Part shown: piece by piece, positions 5,543 through 53,664 of the stretch
Numbering within the stretch: position 1 is the stretch's first letter
Layout: each line of letters starts with the position of its first letter
From: Planctomycetaceae bacterium
GTDB taxonomy: Bacteria > Planctomycetota > Planctomycetia > Pirellulales > Pirellulaceae
DNA: 64,000 nt
Direction: 5' to 3'
Assembly: GCA_947463915.1 (NCBI GenBank)
Contig: CANHVO010000003.1
Location: 1 to 64,000 of the forward strand
Translations under genes and position numbers: made by a program
Notes under the pieces: model-generated
Databases searched by the model: none
Seen by the model: the letters and a program-made list of their open reading frames with translations, nothing else
What the model was told of the DNA's origin: nothing

Positions 5543-6550
5543 CTACTCGCCGATGACTTCGCCACCGGCCCTAGTTCCCAGTGCCCGCCACGTTACCGCT
5601 TCGATCGAGTTGCTAATGCTGCGAACAGAACTGTCCATGAACGCTACTTGAACAAGCCCAACGTGATGACTGCGGCTGGTAACGACGGCATACGTCGGAA
5701 CCGAGGTGGATCGCCCCTCTCGCATGCTATTGAAGTCAATATCGTAAGTTTTGTCGCCTACTACGTATGGGCATTTTGTGTTGGGAGTAAACGTCGTCGT
5801 AAAGCCAGTCTGATGGATTCGGGCGTCGACCCATTCCGTATGTCCTGAATCAACTTTGAACTCCCCACCAAACGTACCGAGTTGACTCGGCAGCGTTGGC
5901 ACAGCAGCCACACCAGACGGGTTGCCACCGTCGCGCAAGTAGGGCGTGAATGCTTTGACCTCCGCGATACCAAGCGTATTACTTAGTCCGTCTGTGATTT
6001 CCGGGATGCTGGTCGGTTTGTTAACTTGAAAGACACCGGTGCTCTGTCCGACGGGAGGTTGGTAGATATGCCATAGCCCGACGTTGCCCGCATAGTTCAA
6101 CGGATAGTGTGTGAAGGTCGGGCCATCTGGTCGCTCGCGATCGTTGGGTTCACTTGGGCAAAGTAAATAGGAAACCCTTACCTTGGCGACGTTAGGCTGC
6201 TGACTGATCGGGAGCTTGAAGTCGATCAGGTTTTGAAGATTGGACTGCTCACAGAATGGTAGCAGCTTGGTATGGAAGCTCCAATAAACGGAACTACCTG
6301 TGGAAACATAATCACCGAGGGGTGGAAATCGCCTTAATGCAGATTCGTGATTGTGCAATGCGATTCCGATCTGACGAAGATTGTTGGAGCATTGCATCCG
6401 GCGAGCCGCTTCGCGTGCGGATTGCACAGCAGGCAAAAGTAGCCCAACGAGAATCCCAATAATGGCAATGACCACCAGCAATTCGACCAAAGTAAAGGCG
6501 TTTTGATGGCGATTCTTCGATTTGGTATGGAACATGTGCCAGCGATTCAT
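5543..6550 (-). CDS. DUF1559 domain-containing protein
   Basis: [42 protein letters not shown]; 335 aa. Confidence 0.93.
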
Positions 6551-6635
6551 GGGTGCTTCAATCTAGTGTTTGGATGCAAAACTTCGACCCGGCATCGAGC
6601 CAAGCAGATCCGCATGTGTTTTTCGTGTCAATTAG

Positions 6636-6706
6636 CCGATGGGCGCTAGCACCGGTTTTCAAATTGCTCGACATTTGTCGAGAACCGGGGCTAGCGCCCC
6701 ACGGCT
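6636..6706. repeat. GGGCGCTAGC hairpin element (gggcgctagcaccggttttc...gaaccggggctagcgcccc)
   Basis: Inverted arms; related GCTAGC/GTTAGCG-type sequence near 29520-29585. Confidence 0.6.
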
Positions 6707-7000
6707 ATTGGTTTGTTTCTCTCGAAGACTCATGCCGAAATGCTTAGATCGCCTTGGACAAGCGAGTAAGTCGTCGCGACTTTCAAGAAGGGTAGCAAAA
6801 CCACAAGCGGGAGCTAGACAGTCACCAACCTCTTCCGTTGGTGCCGAATTATACCCTATCTCGTAAAGTTCGTTTTAAGATGCCGTGAAGAGCAAGTTAA
6901 GCATCTGCGGTTCAAAGAGCAAGCTACATCGGGAAACCTGACTAGTCGTTTGATCCCAAATTGCGTAGAACGTGCTGAACCCCAAAAGGGCAGCGGAGTA

Positions 7001-7053
7001 AAGCATTTCAGGACGGCAGGGGCTTGCCCCTCCGTCCGCAGCTTTGGAGTTCT
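7001..7053 (-). repeat. Dispersed repeat R2, copy 2
   Basis: AAGCATTTCAGGACGGCAGGGGCTTGCCCCTCCGTCCGCAGCTTTGGAGTTCT is the reverse complement of the 3956-4010 copy. Confidence 0.85.
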
Positions 7054-7117
7054 AAATTCACATTGCCTGATCGCATGCCTTCGGGCTGTTGATTTAGTGC
7101 ATTTTCCAAATTCATTT

Positions 7118-7184
7118 CGTTTAACAGTCAGCCGTAGGCGTACTGTCAAAGCTGCAGAGTACGCCTTCGGCTGACTGTTAAACG
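7118..7184. repeat. Long hairpin CGTTTAACAGTCAGCCGTAGGCGTACT ... AGTACGCCTTCGGCTGACTGTTAAACG
   Basis: 27-bp arms, one mismatch, 13-nt loop, intergenic. Confidence 0.9.
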
Positions 7185-7365
7185 ACTCAATCAACAAGCC
7201 CCGAGCTCGTTGGGGGCCAGTTAAAACCAAGCTGAGAAAGTGAGACGGCCTCTAAGCCCGAGCCGGACAAAACGATAAAAGGGGAATCAAGCTTTTGTCC
7301 GAAACGCATCGTTGTAATGATATTCCCAACGATTGTTCTTGACTGGAAACTGCACAAGGGAGAGT

Positions 7366-8370
7366 ATGTTGAAAATCGTACGTACGGATCGAGAACTTGA
7401 AATGACTCTGGTGGACGCTCGACTACGCGACTTGGGAGCGACGCTTGTGACATTGCCTGATGGCGTTTCGGAGGCTGAGTTGTCTCGAGAACTCGCCGAT
7501 GCGGATTTGCTGCTCATGTGTTACACCAGGATAAGTAGGAAAGTCCTTGAGAATGCGCCCCGTCTCAAAGCGATTATTAAGTATGGCGTTGGCATTGATG
7601 CAATCGATATCGATGCAGCTCGAGAGCGTGGCATTCCTGTCGTCAATATTCCGGACTATGCGGAGGAGACGGTAGCCGAGGGAGCTTTTGCATTGATGAT
7701 TGCGTTGGCCAAGCGATTTAAGACGATTCAACATGCCATGCAACAGGATGGCTGGGCTTGGCCGGAGTCGCGATGGTTGGCAAATGATCTCGCTGGCAAA
7801 ACCCTTGGCCTCGTCGGCGTAGGGCGCATCGGCACCAGCATGGCTCGTATGGCAGGCGCGTTCCGAATGCGGGTTGTGGGATACGACCCGCCTGCTAAGA
7901 ATATTTCAGCCGAGCGTTTTCACGACCTTGGTGATATGCTTGAAGAGTGCGATTTTGTTTCGGTGCATTGCGTGTTAAATGCCCAAACAAAAGGTCTGAT
8001 CGGTGAGGCCGAATTCTCTCGGATGAAACCCAGTGCGTTCCTAATCAACGTCTCGCGTGGCGAGATTGTGAACGAAATGGCACTTCTCCATGCATTGCAG
8101 TCTGGCAACATCGCAGGAGCAGCGCTTGATGTTTATGGGCAAGAACCGCTTACCAAAACCGGTCATCCACTTTCTGCTTTCTATGCGATGGACAATGTGC
8201 TTGTTTGGCCACACCTGACCTTTTACACGCAAGAGGCCATGCGCCGATTGGAGGAGGAAACGTTGGCGAGGTGCATCGAGGCCATCGAAGGACGCATGTT
8301 AACCGTGAAGTCGCATGACCCTCGACTTCGCGCTCAGACTGTGGGCGTGGTGTTTGAGCCGAAGTTGTGA
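7366..8370 (+). CDS. D-2-hydroxyacid dehydrogenase (phosphoglycerate dehydrogenase-like)
   Basis: GLVGVGRIGTSMARMAGAFRMRVVGYDP Rossmann motif, NVSRGEIVNEMALL, AALDVYGQEP; ATG at 7366. Confidence 0.93.
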   Translation: MLKIVRTDRELEMTLVDARLRDLGATLVTLPDGVSEAELSRELADADLLLMCYTRISRKVLENAPRLKAIIKYGVGIDAIDIDAARERGIPVVNIPDYAEETVAEGAFALMIALAKRFKTIQHAMQQDGWAWPESRWLANDLAGKTLGLVGVGRIGTSMARMAGAFRMRVVGYDPPAKNISAERFHDLGDMLEECDFVSVHCVLNAQTKGLIGEAEFSRMKPSAFLINVSRGEIVNEMALLHALQSGNIAGAALDVYGQEPLTKTGHPLSAFYAMDNVLVWPHLTFYTQEAMRRLEEETLARCIEAIEGRMLTVKSHDPRLRAQTVGVVFEPKL

Positions 8371-15338: not shown

Positions 15339-16889
15339 ATGACGGTAACGGGCAAATTTCCGAGCAACAAGCTCACGAGGCGTTTTTTCGTTAGTTCGAT
15401 GGTTTCGGGACTTACGGCCGTAGGTGCGGGCTGCAAAATCCCTGGACTCTGTAGACCAGACCGAGCCCATCCAGTTCCGGATACATTCAACGGCGATATG
15501 AACTGGGACAGCTCTGCGTGCGTCGAGCTAAACGAGTTCTTCAATGACCCTATGCTAACGAGCTTGGTCTACCAAGCACTCGTCGATAACCAAGAGTTAA
15601 AGATCTTGGCACAGGACATTCGGATCGCGAACAACGAAGTTCTTGCTAGACGCGGTGCTTATTTCCCATTCGTTTTCTTTGGAGCCCGAGCGGGAGCAGA
15701 AAAGTCTGGTGATTTCACGCGAGAGGGGGCAGTCGAAAGCAATCTAATGGCTAGCGGAAAATCGTTTCCTGACCCGCTCCCCGATTTCCTGGTTGGAACA
15801 AATGTCTCGTGGGAGATCGATATCTGGAAAAAACTACGAAACGCTCGCAGTGCTGCTGCGCTTCGCTACTTGGGAACAAATGATGGTAGAAACTACGTTT
15901 TGACTCGTTTGATAGCGGATATCGCGGAAGAGTATTACGCTCTCTTGGCATTGGATAAGCAACTTGAAACGCTTGATAAGACGATTGAGCTTCAAGAAAA
16001 AAGCTTGGAGTTTGCAATGGCCAAAAAAGAGGCTGGTCGTGGAACTGAACTTGCCGTGCAACGGTTTCAAGCAGAAGTGCGAAAGAACCAGAGCGAGAAA
16101 CTAGTCATCGCGCAGGAGATTGTCGAAGCGGAGAATCGAATCAATTACATTGCCGGTCGCTTCCCTCAAAGGGTCGATCGTCGCTCGGTGGATTTCATCA
16201 ATCTGAATTTGCACTCATTGAGCGCCGGAGTTCCTGCGCAACTGCTTCAGAACCGCAATGATATTCGTCAAGCCGAACGGGAACTTGCTGCCGCGGGGCT
16301 CGAAGTGCAGGTGGCCCGGGCGAACTTTTATCCCTCCCTCAACATTAGTGCGGGCGTCGGCTATCGCGCCTTTGATGGCGGGTTTCTTTTCTCCACTCCA
16401 GCATCACTGGTTTACAACGCCTTTGGAGACGTGGTCGCGCCTCTTATCAATCGGGCGGCGATCAAGGCTGCTTACATGACTGCCAATGCAGAGCAATTGC
16501 AAGCGGTTTATCGATATCAGCAGACCGTATTGAATGCCTTTACAGAAGTGATGAACTTCATGAGTAAAGTCGAAAAGTATGGTCAAAGTATCGAGATTAA
16601 GAAGCAGCAGTTGGAATCGCTAGAAGCGTCCGTCGATTCCGCAACCAAGCTCTTTCAGAACGCACGAGCCGAATATGTCGAGGTACTTCTGGCGCAGCGC
16701 GATCTGCAGGATGCAAAGATCGTCATCATCGAAACCAAAAAGCAACAATTGGCCGCAATCGTCAACGCATATCAAGCTCTGGGGGGGGGTATGGTTCGAA
16801 ACTTCAGTACAACAAACTTCTTAGTTGCCAACAATAGTTTCGGCGAGAACACGAACGAAGTGGAAAATTCGCAGACAGAAACAAAATAA
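15339..16889 (+). CDS. Outer-membrane efflux factor (TolC/NodT family)
   Basis: 516 aa; IDIWKKLRNARSAA, RNDIRQAERELAAAGLEVQVARANFYPSLNIS; N-terminal TRRFFVSSMVSGLTAVGAGC. Confidence 0.93.
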   Translation: MTVTGKFPSNKLTRRFFVSSMVSGLTAVGAGCKIPGLCRPDRAHPVPDTFNGDMNWDSSACVELNEFFNDPMLTSLVYQALVDNQELKILAQDIRIANNEVLARRGAYFPFVFFGARAGAEKSGDFTREGAVESNLMASGKSFPDPLPDFLVGTNVSWEIDIWKKLRNARSAAALRYLGTNDGRNYVLTRLIADIAEEYYALLALDKQLETLDKTIELQEKSLEFAMAKKEAGRGTELAVQRFQAEVRKNQSEKLVIAQEIVEAENRINYIAGRFPQRVDRRSVDFINLNLHSLSAGVPAQLLQNRNDIRQAERELAAAGLEVQVARANFYPSLNISAGVGYRAFDGGFLFSTPASLVYNAFGDVVAPLINRAAIKAAYMTANAEQLQAVYRYQQTVLNAFTEVMNFMSKVEKYGQSIEIKKQQLESLEASVDSATKLFQNARAEYVEVLLAQRDLQDAKIVIIETKKQQLAAIVNAYQALGGGMVRNFSTTNFLVANNSFGENTNEVENSQTETK

Positions 16890-16893
16890 CCGC

Positions 16894-17110
16894 GTAGCCG
16901 ATCTCGCCCGAGTTTGGATAGAGTAAGCTCGTAGCCGATCTCGCCGCAGTTTGGATAGAGTAACCTCGTAGCCGATCTCGCCAGAGTTTGGATAGAGTAA
17001 CCTCGTAGCCGATCTCGCCAGAGTTTGGATAGAGTAAGCTCGTAGCCGATCTCGCCAGAGATCGGACGCTTTCATGCGTTGAGATACCACGCAGCCAAAG
17101 TCAGGCCACT
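16894..17110 (+). repeat. R3 family: 37-bp tandem array (GTAGCCGATCTCGCCAGAGTTTGGATAGAGTAACCTC) ending in one copy with the opposite arm
   Basis: Unit starts at 16894, 16931, 16968, 17005 and 17042 (exact 37-bp period); last copy followed by AGCCAAAGTCAGGCCACTTCGGTTACC arm. Confidence 0.92.
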
Positions 17111-18771: not shown

Positions 18772-19146
18772 GTAGCCGATCTCGCCAGAGATAGGCATTT
18801 TCTTCGTAGCCGATCTCGCCAGAGATTGGAGGGTTACGGAATCGGTTGTTGGTGCATCCAAAGTCTGGCGACTTCGGCTACGGGGTTTCGGATCGTAGCC
18901 GATCTCGCCAGAGATTGGAGGATTGCGGAAAGGGTGTTGGCGTGTCCAAAGTCTGGCGACTTCGGCTACGGGGTTTCGGATCGTAGCCGATCTCGCCAGA
19001 GATTGGAGGGTTACGGAAAGGGTTGTTGGTGCGTCCAAAGTCTGGCGACTTCGGCTACGGGGTTTCGGATCGTAGCCGATCTCGCCAGAGATTGGAGGAT
19101 TGCGGAAAGGGTTGTTGTGCGTCCAAAGTCTGCCGACTTCTGCTAC
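18772..19146 (+). repeat. R3 family: 88-89-bp tandem palindromic array in the HK-RR intergenic region
   Basis: Unit starts at 18806, 18895, 18983 and 19072 plus a leading partial; each GTAGCCGATCTCGCCAGAGATTGGAG...TCCAAAGTCTGGCGACTTCGGCTAC. Confidence 0.93.
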
Positions 19147-21692
19147 GGGGTCTTCTCTTTGTCTAAGACTTCACGAACGAGTCGAAGCAATTGCTCGTCA
19201 GTGTACGGTTTTGCCAGGAAGCCTTCAATGTCGAGCAAACGACCTTCCTCGCGACTTGGGCGACGCAGCCCGCTACTGGTGATGATCTTGGCGCTGGAAT
19301 GGATAGCGCGCAGGGACTCTTTTACCTGTAGGCCATCCATATTGGGCATCATCATATCAAGAATAATGCAATCGATTTCCGCAAACTGGCGTTGGTACGT
19401 TGCGATCCCTTCCAAACCGCCATTGGCCACTAAAACGCGATAGTTGTTGGAGACCAAGGTTTCCTCGGCAGCTTCCAGTATCAAGGCTTCGTCGTCGATG
19501 AGCAGAATCAATTCGCCATTGCCAACAGGAATCACTGGCGACTTCATCGGAGCAGCCTCGAGCTTGTTGGTTATCTTCGAACTCGGCAACAAAATCATGA
19601 ATTTACTACCGCTCCCTTGCTCGCTGTAAACTGAGATATCGCCACCATAGGACCGCACGATTCCGATCGATGTTGCGAGCCCCAAACCGGTCCCTTGGCC
19701 CTGTGGTTTCGTCGTAAAGAACGGATCAAAAATCCGATCGATGATTCCCTTTGGGATTCCATGACCTGTATCTGAAACCGAAATAAGGATATGCAAACCT
19801 TCTTTTAGAATGTCGCTTCGTGAAGCTCGAGATGCATTTACCACAAAGTCTTCAGCCTCAATCAGCAACTCCCCGCCGTCGGGCATCGCGTCGCGAGCAT
19901 TGATGGCCAAGTTCATGACCACTTGTGACAACTCGGTGCTGTCGCCGTCAATACGATGGAGTGCAACGGGAACTGTCACTTTCAACTTAATGGATTGGGG
20001 TAATGTATGTCTGAGTATCTCTTCTAATTCCGATAGAATGGCAACGACATCGATCTGCTTCCAATCGGTTTTTTCTCCTCCAGCAAAAGCCAACAGTTTT
20101 TGGATCATTCTCGCGCCACGATCTGCACTTGCAATGATATTCTCCGTCAACCGTTCAGGGGATTTGCTTCCTCGTTGAAGCAATCTCGCACTCATGATGA
20201 TAGGGGTTAGAACATTGTTTAAGTCGTGCGCAACACCACCGGCCAACGTGCCAATGCTCTCTAGACGTTGAGAACGCCGCTCACGGGCTTCCTCGCGTAC
20301 GCGAGCCGTCACGTCGATCATGAGCAAGAGTTGAGCGACGGGCATATGATTGCTGTCGAAAATTAAAGAACGGCGTTGTTCGATCACAAGATCTTGACTG
20401 TCACTACCGGCCTTTGAAAACGTGGCGGTATGGGAGCCATTCTCCAATAAAATTTTCCGACCATCGCGCCATTCGCCTTCTCGCTGATTGAAGACCAATT
20501 CAACGATACTCTTCCCGATAGCGGTTGCTTTCGAGATTTCAAAGAGCCTTTCAGCTCCCTCATTCCAAGACTGGATACAATCATCGAGATCGCAAACAAC
20601 GATTCCTTCGTTTACTTTGTCGAGGATAGATGCATATTCCCGCTCGCGCGCTTTTAGCTTTTCAGTTTCTGAGATATCGCGGAACTTTATTGTGGCGATG
20701 TGGTCCTTCTCCAGCGTCGTCCAGACGACAGAACCTTCGCATTGCAATTGCACCCCATCGATTCGTTGAATGGGAAGCTTTGCCAAGGATTGCTCGCTTT
20801 GCCGACCACTGCTCTTTAGTTCATCACCACGGAATCCTGCCGGCAAAAAGTCTTTCAAGTTCCAGTTGCGACCTGCGTCTCGCTCTAAGTCCACCCCTAA
20901 AATTTTAGCCGCGGCAGGATTCATGTAGCGAATCGCAAGGTCGTCGCTGCAAGTCAATATTCCCTCGAAAGCAGACTCGATTACGGCTTGAAGCTCATGC
21001 TGATGTTTGACCAACTCGAGTTCCGCATGATCCCGTTTCCTGCGATCAACGACTGCTGCCAGTCCGACAATTGCAATTAGCGTTAAGGCTAAGAGATTGC
21101 CGATAGTGATGGTTGTGCGCGAAATTGCTGTGCGAGAACGCAGAAGAGCTTCGCCCTCCCGAAGCTTCCCTTCTTGGATTGCCAAAATGGACTGGCATGC
21201 TTGACGCGCACCTTCCATCGCCGCCTTGCCCCGGCCAGATTTGACAAGCGCCAGCACTTCATCACTAACTCGAATCTCGCGTTCGCGGCCCCTTAGCTCG
21301 ATTGTTGCGGCAAGGTGCGCTTGCTGCTTTTGGAATGAATCGCCCAACGCAATCACGTGCGCTCGCGTTTGAGGATCTTCGGACGCTCGATCCGATAGCT
21401 TCTCTAAATATTCTGTGGCTTTTCGAACGCCAGAATAATGGGGCTCCAGAAAAGCCGGATCACCAGTCAACAAGAATCCTCGTTGTCCAGTTTCAGCGTC
21501 CGTCATCGCTGAAAGTACTTCCTGGGTCGCCTCTCGCACCTCATAAGCCTGAGACGCAGTTTCCTCCGTTCTTCGAATCGCAAGGGTGTTTATAAAAGTA
21601 ACGATCGCAAATACCGCCACTGCGAGAAAAGCCGTGATGATGGCGGAGGGTAGCAAATACCCTTTGGCATTTAGTTTCAACGGGGGGAGCAA
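19143..21692 (-). CDS. Hybrid sensor histidine kinase (CHASE3-like, PAS, HisKA, HATPase, REC)
   Basis: TDAETGQRGFLLTGDPAFLEPY-type CHASE3, GGVAHDLNNVLTPI, GHGIPKGIIDRIFDPFFTTKPQGQGTGLGLA, C-terminal LILLIDDE...LDMMMPNMDG. Confidence 0.96.
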   Translation of the reverse strand: MLPPLKLNAKGYLLPSAIITAFLAVAVFAIVTFINTLAIRRTEETASQAYEVREATQEVLSAMTDAETGQRGFLLTGDPAFLEPHYSGVRKATEYLEKLSDRASEDPQTRAHVIALGDSFQKQQAHLAATIELRGREREIRVSDEVLALVKSGRGKAAMEGARQACQSILAIQEGKLREGEALLRSRTAISRTTITIGNLLALTLIAIVGLAAVVDRRKRDHAELELVKHQHELQAVIESAFEGILTCSDDLAIRYMNPAAAKILGVDLERDAGRNWNLKDFLPAGFRGDELKSSGRQSEQSLAKLPIQRIDGVQLQCEGSVVWTTLEKDHIATIKFRDISETEKLKAREREYASILDKVNEGIVVCDLDDCIQSWNEGAERLFEISKATAIGKSIVELVFNQREGEWRDGRKILLENGSHTATFSKAGSDSQDLVIEQRRSLIFDSNHMPVAQLLLMIDVTARVREEARERRSQRLESIGTLAGGVAHDLNNVLTPIIMSARLLQRGSKSPERLTENIIASADRGARMIQKLLAFAGGEKTDWKQIDVVAILSELEEILRHTLPQSIKLKVTVPVALHRIDGDSTELSQVVMNLAINARDAMPDGGELLIEAEDFVVNASRASRSDILKEGLHILISVSDTGHGIPKGIIDRIFDPFFTTKPQGQGTGLGLATSIGIVRSYGGDISVYSEQGSGSKFMILLPSSKITNKLEAAPMKSPVIPVGNGELILLIDDEALILEAAEETLVSNNYRVLVANGGLEGIATYQRQFAEIDCIILDMMMPNMDGLQVKESLRAIHSSAKIITSSGLRRPSREEGRLLDIEGFLAKPYTDEQLLRLVREVLDKEKTP

Positions 21693-22352: not shown

Positions 22353-22442
22353 GGTAGCCGAAGTTGCCAGACTTTGGACGCAGACAAATGCATCCAATCT
22401 CTGGCGAGATCGGCTACGTTATGGTGAGATCGGCTACGTTAT
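22353..22442 (-). repeat. R3 family, inverted copy with a duplicated arm
   Basis: gtagccgaagttgccagactttggacgc...tccaatctctggcgagatcggctacgttatggtgagatcggctacgttatgg. Confidence 0.88.
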
Positions 22443-22587
22443 GGCGAAACATTGATTCGATATTAAGCTCCGGTGGACGCATGATCGGTGCCCAAAATGA
22501 ACTTGCATCGGATGCATTCTGACTGCTATCCAAGATGGTCTGATCGAATGAACGATTGGAAACAGAATTCAGTAAGGAGACATCGCT

Positions 22588-48206: not shown

Positions 48207-49168
48207 TCATGATTGTGGCCGGAATGGTTTCCATGTGCGGCGTCGTCCAACGCCTGGCCGCTATGGTTATCGCCGCTGTGGTTATGGCCAGGCAAATTCT
48301 CGATACCGATGGCAATCGCGACGCCGAGCAAAAACGCCGTGGTCAACTTACCGCGGTCGTGTGAGTGAAAAGCGACTTCGGGAAGCAAGTCAGCCAACGC
48401 GATGCCGATAAAAAAGCCAGCTGAGATCGTTAAGCCCCAGCCGAGAATGCTCGAACCTGGCGCAAACGAGGTGGCTCCAAAATAGAAGGCCATGGCGCCT
48501 GCCGGACACGCGAGCGAGAACGCGATGTTCGCCGCATTCTGCGCTCCCTTGGGCCAATTCTGTTTGTTCATTACGGACGTGATCGCAAAAGCATCCAGTG
48601 GCTTGTGAAGCAGAACAGCTAAGAAAGTCCCTAAACCGGCTAACCCCAGCCAAGATCCATGGGCGGCATCAGCAATCACGCTACTCGCAAGCGCCACTCC
48701 ATCGACCAGGGTGTGTAAGAGAAGTCCCAAGAAAAGACCTGCCCAACTGATCCCTTTGATCTCGGAATCTTGAATCGCGTGACCATGATCACAGCCCACA
48801 TGTTGATGAGCATGTCCAGTCGTCTCCACCCCCGCATCGCTTTCCGCAACCACCTGCACGCTGTGATCGTGGGTGTGGAAGAGGCGAATGAGCAGGAACA
48901 TGACCGTTAATCCGATCAAGGCACCAGTACCGGCCTGCGAATAGGACTGCAAGACTTCGCCGCCATGAGGTAGCAAGTGCAGCATCGCAATGCCTATCAT
49001 CAAGCCACCGACGCCACTCATCAGCATCTGCGTTCGAAGGTGGGTCATTCGGAGCAAGGACGACAATTTTCCGCCCGCAACCGAAGCGGCGGCGATCAAC
49101 AAACAATACAGTAGGAGCAAAAAGGAAGGTGGCATCAAAGGCGATTCTCGTGGCATTGGAAACAACAA
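48167..49168 (-). CDS. ZIP-family metal transporter
   Basis: LLHTLVDGVALASS...ILGWGLTISAGFFIGIALADLLPEVAFHSHDR, His-rich C-terminus GNHSGHNHDHHDHSGHIHASE. Confidence 0.92.
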   Translation of the reverse strand: MLFPMPRESPLMPPSFLLLLYCLLIAAASVAGGKLSSLLRMTHLRTQMLMSGVGGLMIGIAMLHLLPHGGEVLQSYSQAGTGALIGLTVMFLLIRLFHTHDHSVQVVAESDAGVETTGHAHQHVGCDHGHAIQDSEIKGISWAGLFLGLLLHTLVDGVALASSVIADAAHGSWLGLAGLGTFLAVLLHKPLDAFAITSVMNKQNWPKGAQNAANIAFSLACPAGAMAFYFGATSFAPGSSILGWGLTISAGFFIGIALADLLPEVAFHSHDRGKLTTAFLLGVAIAIGIENLPGHNHSGDNHSGQALDDAAHGNHSGHNHDHHDHSGHIHASE

Positions 49169-49190
49169 TCAAGCCGCATAGCATACGCTC

Positions 49191-49209
49191 ATGCAATGAT
49201 TTTGCATAT
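49191..49209. promoter_or_regulatory. Zur-like operator candidate ATGCAATGATTTTGCATAT
   Basis: Perfect ATGCAA-N5-TTGCAT inverted repeat 22 bp upstream of the ZIP start codon. Confidence 0.5.
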
Positions 49210-49272
49210 TCCAGAACCGGCTGAAAATTCCGGTGGCAAAGGTGGATCTTTGCATGGTTTCAATGCTACAAA

Positions 49273-49580
49273 GGTTCTCCGGATCAACCAGCACACGCAA
49301 TTTCGTCACCTCTCCCAACGGAGTTCGTCACCTCTCCCAAACGAGTTTGTCACCTCTCCCAACGGAGTTGGGGGAGGTCGAATGGAGCCTTCAGCGACAT
49401 TCGGGAGGGGGCTTGAGCTCTGCAGGAGGCTCCTTGGAGCCAATTCGAAGCCGTACCCCCTCCCGGAAGCTGTACATACACCCTCCCACTCCCTCCCCCT
49501 CCCGGACGAGGCTAGCGCCCGTCCGACCTCCCCCAGCGAAGCTGGGAGAGGTGACTCTTGCTGCGCTGGGAGAGGTGACG
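49273..49580 (+). repeat. R4-related ~300-bp repeat block, left copy, next to DUF559
   Basis: TTCTCCGGATCAACCAGCACACGCAAtTTCGTCACCTCTCCC...GACCTCCCCCAGCGAAGCTGGGAGAGGTGAC repeated at 50069-50353. Confidence 0.93.
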
Positions 49581-50114
49581 TTACCGGCTTTTTGGGGAGT
49601 TAGTTAAGCGATGGGAGCGCATTCCGGATCGCACTTCAATATGTGGTCCATAGGTTGGCTTCAATCCCATCGATTTTGCGATCGCGATTGCAACGGCTTC
49701 GACATCGTCGATCACTTCTTCGTTGGAGAATCGCAGAACTCGCCATCCCTGTGCTTCAAGATACTGTTGACGATGAGTATCATCCTCGTACGTATAATCG
49801 TGATATCCACCATCGATTTCCACGATCAGTGCCAACTCGCAGCATGCAAAGTCAGCGACAAACGGGTGGACAGGGTGTTGTCGACGAAACTTTTTGTTGC
49901 ACAGCCGGTTGGCTCGCAGAACACTCCAAACCAAGGATTCCGCCCTTGTTTGGCGATTTCGTAACTCGCGAGCTTTGCGAATCAATTCCGTTGTCATCGG
50001 TTGGAGCTCCTCGTAACCATCAGGGTTGGGGAACCAAGAAACAGGATTTTCGGCATTATCGACGATGAGATTCTCCGGATCAACCAGCACACGCAACTTC
50101 GTCACCTCTCCCAA
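49581..50114 (-). CDS. DUF559 (Vsr-like endonuclease fold) protein
   Basis: RKARELRNRQTRAESLVWSVLRANRLCNKKFRRQHPVHPFVADFACCELALIVEIDGGYHDYTYEDDTHRQQYLEAQGWRVLRFSNEEV. Confidence 0.93.
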   Translation of the reverse strand: MGEVTKLRVLVDPENLIVDNAENPVSWFPNPDGYEELQPMTTELIRKARELRNRQTRAESLVWSVLRANRLCNKKFRRQHPVHPFVADFACCELALIVEIDGGYHDYTYEDDTHRQQYLEAQGWRVLRFSNEEVIDDVEAVAIAIAKSMGLKPTYGPHIEVRSGMRSHRLTNSPKSR

Positions 50115-50353
50115 CCGAGATTGTCACCTCTCCCAATGGAGTTGGTCACCTCTCCCAACGGAGTTGGGGGAGGTCGAATGGAGCCTTCAGCGACATTCGG
50201 GAGGGGGCTTGAGCTCTGCAGGAGGCTCCTTGGAGCCAATTCGAAGCCGTACCCCGCCCCGAAGCCTTACCCCTCCCGGACGAGGCTAGCGCCCGTCCGA
50301 CCTCCCCCAGCGAAGCTGGGAGAGGTGGCTTTTGCTGTGTTGGGAGAGGTGAC
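50069..50353 (+). repeat. R4-related ~300-bp repeat block, right copy, overlapping the DUF559 start
   Basis: Direct repeat of the 49273-49580 block. Confidence 0.93.
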
Positions 50354-52117: not shown

Positions 52118-52190
52118 TGTAGCGAAACTCGTCAAGAGTTTCGGTCGTCAAGGCGATGCAGCCAAAAGTCTTGACGACTTTCGCTACACA
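52118..52190 (+). repeat. Palindromic repeat family R1, copy 3
   Basis: TGTAGCGAAACTCGTCAAGAGTTTCGGTCGTCAAGGCGATGCAGCCAAAAGTCTTGACGACTTTCGCTACA. Confidence 0.9.
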
Positions 52191-52263
52191 AATGCCTGCC
52201 TACTACCATACAATGTCGGGATTAAAACCGTTTTTTGTAATGGTCAAATCATTGGATCGGCAC

Positions 52264-53664
52264 ATGGACAAATCACCCGTTGGTCTCTCGCGCCGCGCGT
52301 TTGTCAATCTCGCAGGAGCGTCCGCGTGCGCGCTAACCATCGCGGGCTTTGACCAAAAAAGATTGGCCACCGGGGCGAAAACTCTCGATTTCCAGCCGAT
52401 TCGATCGTGCATCTTTTTGTTCTATTATGGTGGGCCAAGTCATATCGATACGTACGACATGAAGCCCAACGCGCCTGCTGAAATACGAGGTGATTTTCGG
52501 CCGATTTCCACGAACGTCCCAGGCCTACAGATTTGTGAACATTTGCCACGTATGGCTCGGGTCATGGACAAAGTGGCTGTCATCCGAAGCGTCCATCACA
52601 GCGCAACTTTACACGACTCAGCATCGATCCATGCATTAACCGGCCGGCCACTGGATGGAACTGATCGCGAATTGTTTGAACCTATACCGCAGTTTTACCC
52701 CAGTTATGGTAGCGCGGTAGCGTACATGAAACCGCAAACGGCTTCGCACGTTCCTTATGCAGCTTTGCCGTTTGTGTTTCAAAACGTGGTTCCCACGCCT
52801 TGCCAGGGAGGTGGGATGCTGGGCAATACTTGGGACCCACTACGGATTGATGTCGATCCGATTGCAAAGCACTATCTCGCCGACGCATTAGGGCTTCGCG
52901 ATGGAATGAATTTGGGGCGAATGGCCGAGCGACGTGGATTGTTGTCGCAACTCAACGCTTCGCATCGATCGCTGGATTCCATGAGTCGCTATCATGATCG
53001 AGCCTTGCAACTGATCGAGTCCGAATCGATTCGCAATGCGTTGGACATTTCTCGCGAACCGGAGTCGGTACGACAGCGTTACGGTTTTGGCAGCGATCCC
53101 ACCGACAAAGGAGAGGTCAACGGCGGTGGCGCCGAAATGGGTTTCGCAAGACAAATGCGAGGCCAGAATCTATTGCTTGCTCGTCGACTGGTTGAGGCAG
53201 GGGTTCAGTTCATCAATATCTATGACTGTAAGCAGCAAGGGCAAAACTGGGACGCACATGCAAATGGCTCCAGTCAGCATAAAAACTATCTGCTCCCACA
53301 GGCCGACCAATCCCTTTCTGCATTAATCGAAGATCTCGATCAGCGAGGGCTTCTTGAGTCAACACTTATTGTGGCCTCAGGTGAATTTGGAAGGACTCCG
53401 AAAATCAATACCACGGCGGGCCGCGACCACTGGCCTCATTGCTATTCCGTTGTAATGGCTGGGGGCGGCGTTTGTGGTGGAGCGATCTATGGTGCTAGCG
53501 ATAAACAAGGTGGCTATCCCATCAGCGATCCGGTCACACCTGGCGACATAGCAGCGAGCATTTATTGGCGATTCGGTATCAACCATTCCGTGGACATCCA
53601 CGATCCACTTGGCCGGCCTCATCGACTAGCAATCGGCGAACCGCTTCGCAAGCTTTTTGTGTAG
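52264..53664 (+). CDS. DUF1501 domain-containing protein, Tat-type signal
   Basis: LSRRAFVNLAGASACALTIAGF, YYGGPSHIDTYDMKPNAPAEIRGDFRPI, VVASGEFGRTPKINTTAGRDHWPHCYSVVMAGGG. Confidence 0.93.
   Translation: MDKSPVGLSRRAFVNLAGASACALTIAGFDQKRLATGAKTLDFQPIRSCIFLFYYGGPSHIDTYDMKPNAPAEIRGDFRPISTNVPGLQICEHLPRMARVMDKVAVIRSVHHSATLHDSASIHALTGRPLDGTDRELFEPIPQFYPSYGSAVAYMKPQTASHVPYAALPFVFQNVVPTPCQGGGMLGNTWDPLRIDVDPIAKHYLADALGLRDGMNLGRMAERRGLLSQLNASHRSLDSMSRYHDRALQLIESESIRNALDISREPESVRQRYGFGSDPTDKGEVNGGGAEMGFARQMRGQNLLLARRLVEAGVQFINIYDCKQQGQNWDAHANGSSQHKNYLLPQADQSLSALIEDLDQRGLLESTLIVASGEFGRTPKINTTAGRDHWPHCYSVVMAGGGVCGGAIYGASDKQGGYPISDPVTPGDIAASIYWRFGINHSVDIHDPLGRPHRLAIGEPLRKLFV

Follow-up and report, generated by a model that had tools for sequence, protein, structure and literature searches.

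A DUF559 nuclease gene set between REPIN-like hairpin repeats in a planctomycete, and its recurrent association with such repeats across bacterial phyla

The window, a stretch of 64,000 nucleotides from a Planctomycetaceae bacterium (contig CANHVO010000003.1 of assembly GCA_947463915.1; genome G000), contains a DUF559 nuclease gene bracketed by two direct-repeat blocks (49272–49579 and 50068–50353; Table 1). The neighboring open reading frames, judged from their translations, encode a ZIP-like transporter and a DUF1559 protein. The two blocks are 95% identical over 194 nt (49272-49465 / 50068-50261) and 93% identical over 89 nt (49491-49579 / 50265-50353), and a 22-bp indel separates these two stretches. 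The original prediction, a block–DUF559–block arrangement in direct repeat with the stop codon of the gene abutting the left block, is borne out on both counts, with Pfam placing DUF559 on the minus strand and the TAA touching the block. Within each block two hairpins lie in inverted orientation, and the outer ends, GTCACCTCTCCCA...TGGGAGAGGTGAC, are perfect; the arms scored well below shuffled controls in single-strand folding (z of -3.7 and -4.1). Allowing at most one mismatch, TCACCTCTCCC matches 11 times in the window against 1.05 matches expected, and 10 of these 11 lie inside the two blocks. Other tandem or palindromic repeats in the window (TCGTAGCCGATCTCGCCAGAG / CTCTGGCGACTTCGGCTACG, at 16887-17060, 18804-19151 and 22402-22447) form a distinct repeat family.

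Table 1. Positions of the DUF559 gene and the surrounding repeat features in the window
Feature	Position	Strand	Description
DUF559 nuclease gene	49581..49997	minus	ATG at 49997, 138 aa, stop TAA 49581-49583; Pfam PF04480 E=1e-34
Left repeat block, REPIN-like	49305..49579	.	three 22-bp TCACCTCTCCC copies, arm, non-coding loop, arm, end TGGGAGAGGTGAC
Right repeat block	50101..50353	.	93-95% identity to left block, 22-bp indel
Hairpin arm GTCACCTCTCCCAACGGAGTTGGGGGAGGTCG, left block	49349..49380	.	single-strand fold z=-3.7
Hairpin arm CGACCTCCCCCAGCGAAGCTGGGAGAGGTGAC, left block	49524..49555	.	inverted relative to the other left-block arm
Hairpin arm, right block	50145..50176	.	from repeat comparison
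Second hairpin arm, right block	50298..50329	.	from repeat comparison
Gene-side leader, 33 nt	50068..50100	.	duplicated along with the block
Leader duplicate past left block	49272..49304	.	no DUF559 gene behind it; synteny with G146 ends here

The start of the gene differs from what had been proposed, namely start codons lying within the repeat. In a sister species (G146), an in-frame TAG separates the repeat from the gene; the conserved sequence starts at the ATG, downstream of an AGGAG-type ribosome-binding site. Given this broken frame and the point at which conservation starts, the supposed N-terminal peptide MGEVTKLRVLVDPENL is most likely an untranslated leader. A second copy of the DUF559 N terminus had also been claimed; a duplicate of about 33 nt of the gene-side sequence does exist beyond the left block, although it most likely represents duplicated leader DNA and not coding sequence. 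Measured from the ATG, the comparison with the G146 orthologue gave a Ka/Ks of 0.062, and the gene is under strong purifying selection, as expected for a working enzyme.

In the Pfam search the protein matched DUF559 and MTES_1575 only, and it had no match to the Y1 HUH transposase family (PF01797). Its AlphaFold model (pLDDT 85) was closest in a Foldseek search of PDB folds to Neisseria NGO0050 (3hrl) and to the catalytic domain of the homing endonuclease I-Bth0305I (3r3p; E 7e-5, TM 0.75 on target), and a sequence-profile search likewise ranked these two first (E 1e-5 for I-Bth0305I). The fold had been anticipated to be that of Vsr, which came behind I-Bth0305I, at rank 12 with an E of 0.05. 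Residues D49, E60, D62, H66 and D73 are among those invariant in an alignment of 16 DUF559 sequences, a set that would fit a metal-dependent nuclease; the alignment with I-Bth0305I retains the E60 and D73 positions, but not every DUF559-invariant residue. A DUF559 gene has already been assigned to the EDxHD homing family (PMC9403480). Some cyanobacterial DUF559 genes (L357, on a Synechocystis plasmid, and L351) adjoin BREX- or DUF1156-type genes and lack strong inverted arms framing them, and from such neighborhoods the family may also include defence-linked members.

The block–gene–block arrangement recurs in the sister species G146, beside the same DUF1559 gene, at about 85% DNA identity. 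Since it occupies the orthologous place, the arrangement is older than the split between the two species. The opposite flank differs, with the ZIP-like transporter in G000 and, as read from translations, a dehydrogenase-like gene in G146. The outer limit of the left block is precisely where synteny stops (window 49168-49305 versus L099 3070-3130), suggesting that the repeats are recombination points. A search for an empty site at this locus found none among the relatives, in every one of which the DUF1559 side was conserved and the other side different. In G146 the orthologous place lacks a DUF1501-like gene that, in the window (52156-53664), separates the DUF1559 gene pair from aspS.

Blocks of the window type are found at about a dozen other sites in G000 and at several in G146. 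Within the clade these blocks were not equally common with and without DUF559, since three congeners that have no window-type DUF559 gene (G136, G166 and G105) contained zero copies. Several gene-less copies (C467, C137 and C504 in G000, and G146:C98) still have the 3' end of the DUF559 gene, its final 34–74 nt, next to the block. In C504, the block and the final 74 nt together form a unit that recurs in tandem every 324 bp. The 3' remnant in C504 scored 73, where shuffled sequences reached at most 28. A candidate 5' remnant there lacked significance (score 11, with shuffles reaching 20), and we claim the 3' remnant alone. With their DUF559 3' ends, these copies are MITE-like derivatives of the unit that carries the gene.

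G000 has just one further DUF559 locus, C208, where three copies follow one another in tandem at a 681-bp period; two of them carry stop codons, and the copy at C208:6511 is intact. A different hairpin (CTCCCCTTCTCCTCC…GGAGGAGAAGGGG) with the tag GATGAGGAGG frames them on both sides in inverted orientation. Gene-less copies of this second repeat number in the dozens in G000 and G146, and many form inverted pairs whose members lie about 200–240 bp from each other, the loop between them being non-coding. The two DUF559 types of the window genome are 36% identical, and each has its own repeat. Another dispersed repeat, about 49 bp long (TCCGGCTGAAGCCGGTACACCAGCTTTTAGCTCAAGG), occurs around position 7800 of C208 and at about 20 places in G000, with many copies also in G146 and the congeners.

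We surveyed 149 genomes of the window organism's family, 80 of which had a DUF559 match; the loci fetched from these yielded 79 testable stand-alone genes. Inverted arms were scored as present when they reached a score of at least 40 within 350 bp of the gene. As a control we used 2076 matched pseudo-genes in place of mispaired flanks, which were unsuitable because all flanks share the motif. The proposed association of DUF559 with the repeats was found: inverted arms lay at 51 of the 79 genes versus 0.3% of the pseudo-genes, and inverted or direct arms lay near 63. Among the 16 apparent misses, five are near-identical genes of a single tandem array in G021, with arms further out (230–420 bp), and some DUF559 loci in the family have no arms. 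DUF559 and repeat units form tandem arrays in several genera. In the one genome sampled for occupants (G105; 298 ORFs in 400 kb, a region picked partly around its DUF559 array), DUF559 is the near-exclusive occupant between arms: three DUF559 genes, one spurious spacer ORF and one gene beside the array lay between strong arms, with one weak ORF elsewhere.

Hairpins of the form CCTCTCCC-N3–20-GGGAGAGG numbered 679 in total, versus 18 for the reversed pattern. At least three of them were present in 22 of 50 genomes with a stand-alone DUF559 gene versus 9 of 99 without (p=2e-6, counting related genomes as independent), and about a third of the genomes without a stand-alone gene still hold at least one hairpin of this class. 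Three genomes of genus g43 (G043, G090 and G129) have 23-28 hairpins each and no DUF559 gene, and in their congener G140 the gene is broken by a stop; in this genus it looks as if the enzyme was lost before the repeats.

Repeat and protein also vary together. Across 39 loci of the family, arm similarity tracked protein similarity (Mantel r=0.44, p=0.0005), as it did when genera were compared with one another (r=0.31, p=0.0005). Among pairs of DUF559 genes from one and the same genome, arms are shared (0.58-1.0) by the seven whose proteins are similar, and not by the eight whose proteins are dissimilar (0.12-0.45).

In relatives the gene is found in the loop of repeat cassettes; elsewhere the loops of such cassettes are non-coding. 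G075 and G011 are syntenic at 91–94% and have one DUF559 unit in common. G075 has a second unit, 9.3 kb from the first; at the syntenic site G011 lacks it and has instead an array of blocks that share these arms but contain no gene. Given that the two G075 copies are more alike (90.8%) than either is to the G011 copy (86–87%), a gain of the second unit in G075 is mildly favoured by the sequences. Recombination between flanking direct repeats, deleting the gene, could also produce such cases of presence and absence, which may thus be gains or losses. A REPIN at G146:C46 corresponds to a single hairpin at G000:C197, with the junction inside the hairpin, and in this sole clean pair there was no target-site duplication. 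A DUF559 unit at G146:C29 is missing from the corresponding place at G000:C274, which has a different ORF; this 0.95-kb reading frame (6418-7366; L320) is alpha/beta hydrolase-like by eye. C137 and C274, considered as clean empty sites, proved polymorphic but rearranged.

Outside Planctomycetota, where the contig scan for DUF559 used a closer protein set, a 16-protein alignment being too diverse, inverted arms at the same threshold framed 24 of 47 loci versus none of 1573 controls, and about half of the loci had no arms. Arms in Bacteroidota are often CCTCACCCC-NN-CCCCTCTCC…GGAGAGG, and those in Thiobacillus, Armatimonadota and Planctomycetota are often a hairpin followed by GGGGTGAGG. Outside Planctomycetota, a CTCTCC-type hairpin with a GGGGTGAGG tag is a frequent form of the arms. 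In 12 genomes of Bacteroidota, Armatimonadota and Thiobacillus the motif of tag plus hairpin occurs in about 400 copies, many in close inverted pairs, versus 0 matches to the reversed control. Plasmid-borne DUF559 genes (Azospirillum, Deinococcus, Sphingomonas and Novosphingobium) had inverted arms in half of 10 cases.

We consider it probable that the DUF559 gene and its hairpin repeats constitute one selfish, REP/REPIN-like element that is driven by the nuclease. The original prediction held that the nuclease and the palindromic repeat move or amplify together in a REP-like manner; the association, the tandem arrays, the DUF559 remnants and the co-variation of repeat and protein all support this, and from them we infer cleavage and movement. 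In such an element, a hairpin with a short conserved tag is one repeat, and two inverted repeats make a cassette, the interior of which is either non-coding (non-autonomous and MITE-like) or holds the DUF559 gene (autonomous). In the window's own family, the gene sits between two such cassettes. The nuclease would recognise, and then cut or nick, its cognate hairpin and tag in gene-less copies. A copy with the gene would then serve as template for mending the break, the arms supplying the homology, and the gene would thereby be copied into the repeat, as in homing. The same breaks could give rise to tandem gains and losses between close relatives. A RAYT-like step of direct excision or insertion by the nuclease is a less favoured possibility, as no duplication of the target was observed.

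Several other explanations would account for parts of these data. The gene might be a passenger, perhaps a repair or defence nuclease that was merely trapped among repeats spread by RAYT or by recombination, and then amplified by unequal recombination of the direct repeats. Direct repeats always allow tandem duplication, and in Caulobacter a DUF559 protein is reported to serve the host in a manner akin to mismatch repair (PMC12907096). RAYT-type Y1_Tnp genes were present in all ten genomes tested, but none of ten such genes had the DUF559-type hairpin nearby; their flanks hold unrelated repeats, with several RAYT genes having different repeats of their own, and RAYT as mobiliser of the DUF559-associated repeats is unsupported. 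A passenger would also have to be reconciled with the near-exclusive occupancy in G105, the co-variation of arms with the protein inside single genomes and the recurrence of the association across several phyla, and we judge this explanation unlikely. We think it distinctly improbable that the nuclease acts as a RAYT-like transposase, directly excising and inserting the hairpin-flanked unit without homologous repair. Inverted arms around the gene and dispersed two-arm copies do resemble REPtrons, as the hairpin with its unpaired tag resembles the REP design, but neither a target duplication nor a clean empty target was found at the sites compared, and gene and non-coding loop alternate between the same arms, as homology-driven replacement predicts. 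Moreover, we know of no strand-transfer chemistry in a PD-(D/E)XK-type nuclease.

The remaining explanations concern the window or the genomes' composition. That the window holds an immobile, old local duplication, in tandem, of a repeat carrying the gene start would agree with the orthologous block–gene–block in G146, which is hence not recent; it is very hard to maintain against the dispersed copies, the remnants of the gene at other sites and the recurrence of this design across many genera and phyla. A compositional artefact, with purine-rich hairpins common near any gene in such genomes, can draw on the abundance of the CCTCTCCC/GGGAGAGG class in some genomes, but the low rates in matched pseudo-genes and the scarcity of reversed-pattern matches, in the family and beyond it, leave this scarcely credible.

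The nuclease-driven element that we favour shares with the REP/REPIN and RAYT systems (REPtrons) its dispersed hairpin repeats, inverted pairs, gene-less copies and a dedicated nuclease gene between repeats. The REPtron enzyme, however, is a Y1 HUH transposase, whereas DUF559 has a homing-endonuclease/Vsr-like fold, and the REP tag is GTAG, in contrast to GTCAC, GATGAGGAGG or GGGGTGAGG in the DUF559 repeats. I-Bth0305I, an EDxHD homing endonuclease, is likewise a small selfish nuclease and is similar in catalytic-domain fold and by profile match, although the DUF559 genes here lie outside any intron or intein, have no DNA-binding tail and are paired with hairpin repeats. MITEs and IS elements also combine an autonomous gene copy, non-autonomous deletion derivatives and inverted ends; unlike them, the DUF559 unit has no DDE transposase, and no target-site duplication was seen in its one clean pair. 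CGTC-tagged REPs are short palindromic repeats that similarly have no known dedicated transposase, but they differ in tag and sequence and were not linked to DUF559 in the report describing them (PMC3733652). The tag GGGGTGAG of many DUF559 repeats fits the GGGGWSAS motif reported for TIRYT ends (PMC3733652), which could be a link or chance. Neisseria NGO0050 (3hrl) and E. coli YcjD belong to the same DUF559 family, and in the papers we found a repeat partnership is undescribed for both. Our literature search, which covered sources other than subscription journals, found no paper linking DUF559 to repeats.

A wider proposal, which we regard as about evenly balanced, is that DUF559 proteins of homing-endonuclease fold home into and multiply hairpin repeats as a widespread, hitherto unrecognised class of selfish repeat system spanning Planctomycetota, Bacteroidota, Armatimonadota, Chloroflexota and Proteobacteria, each lineage with its cognate hairpin and tag. 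Such a class would explain many orphan CTCTCC/GGAGAG families without RAYT. Many bacterial genomes hold hairpin repeats for which no mobilising enzyme is known. If DUF559 partners the CTCTCC/GGGGTGAGG class, these repeats would gain an engine that is not a transposase, and a large domain family of "unknown function" would gain a role. A 138-aa protein and short hairpin oligonucleotides would suffice for a direct test of the prediction. If it is true, REP-like repeat systems would have arisen around two enzyme folds unrelated to each other.
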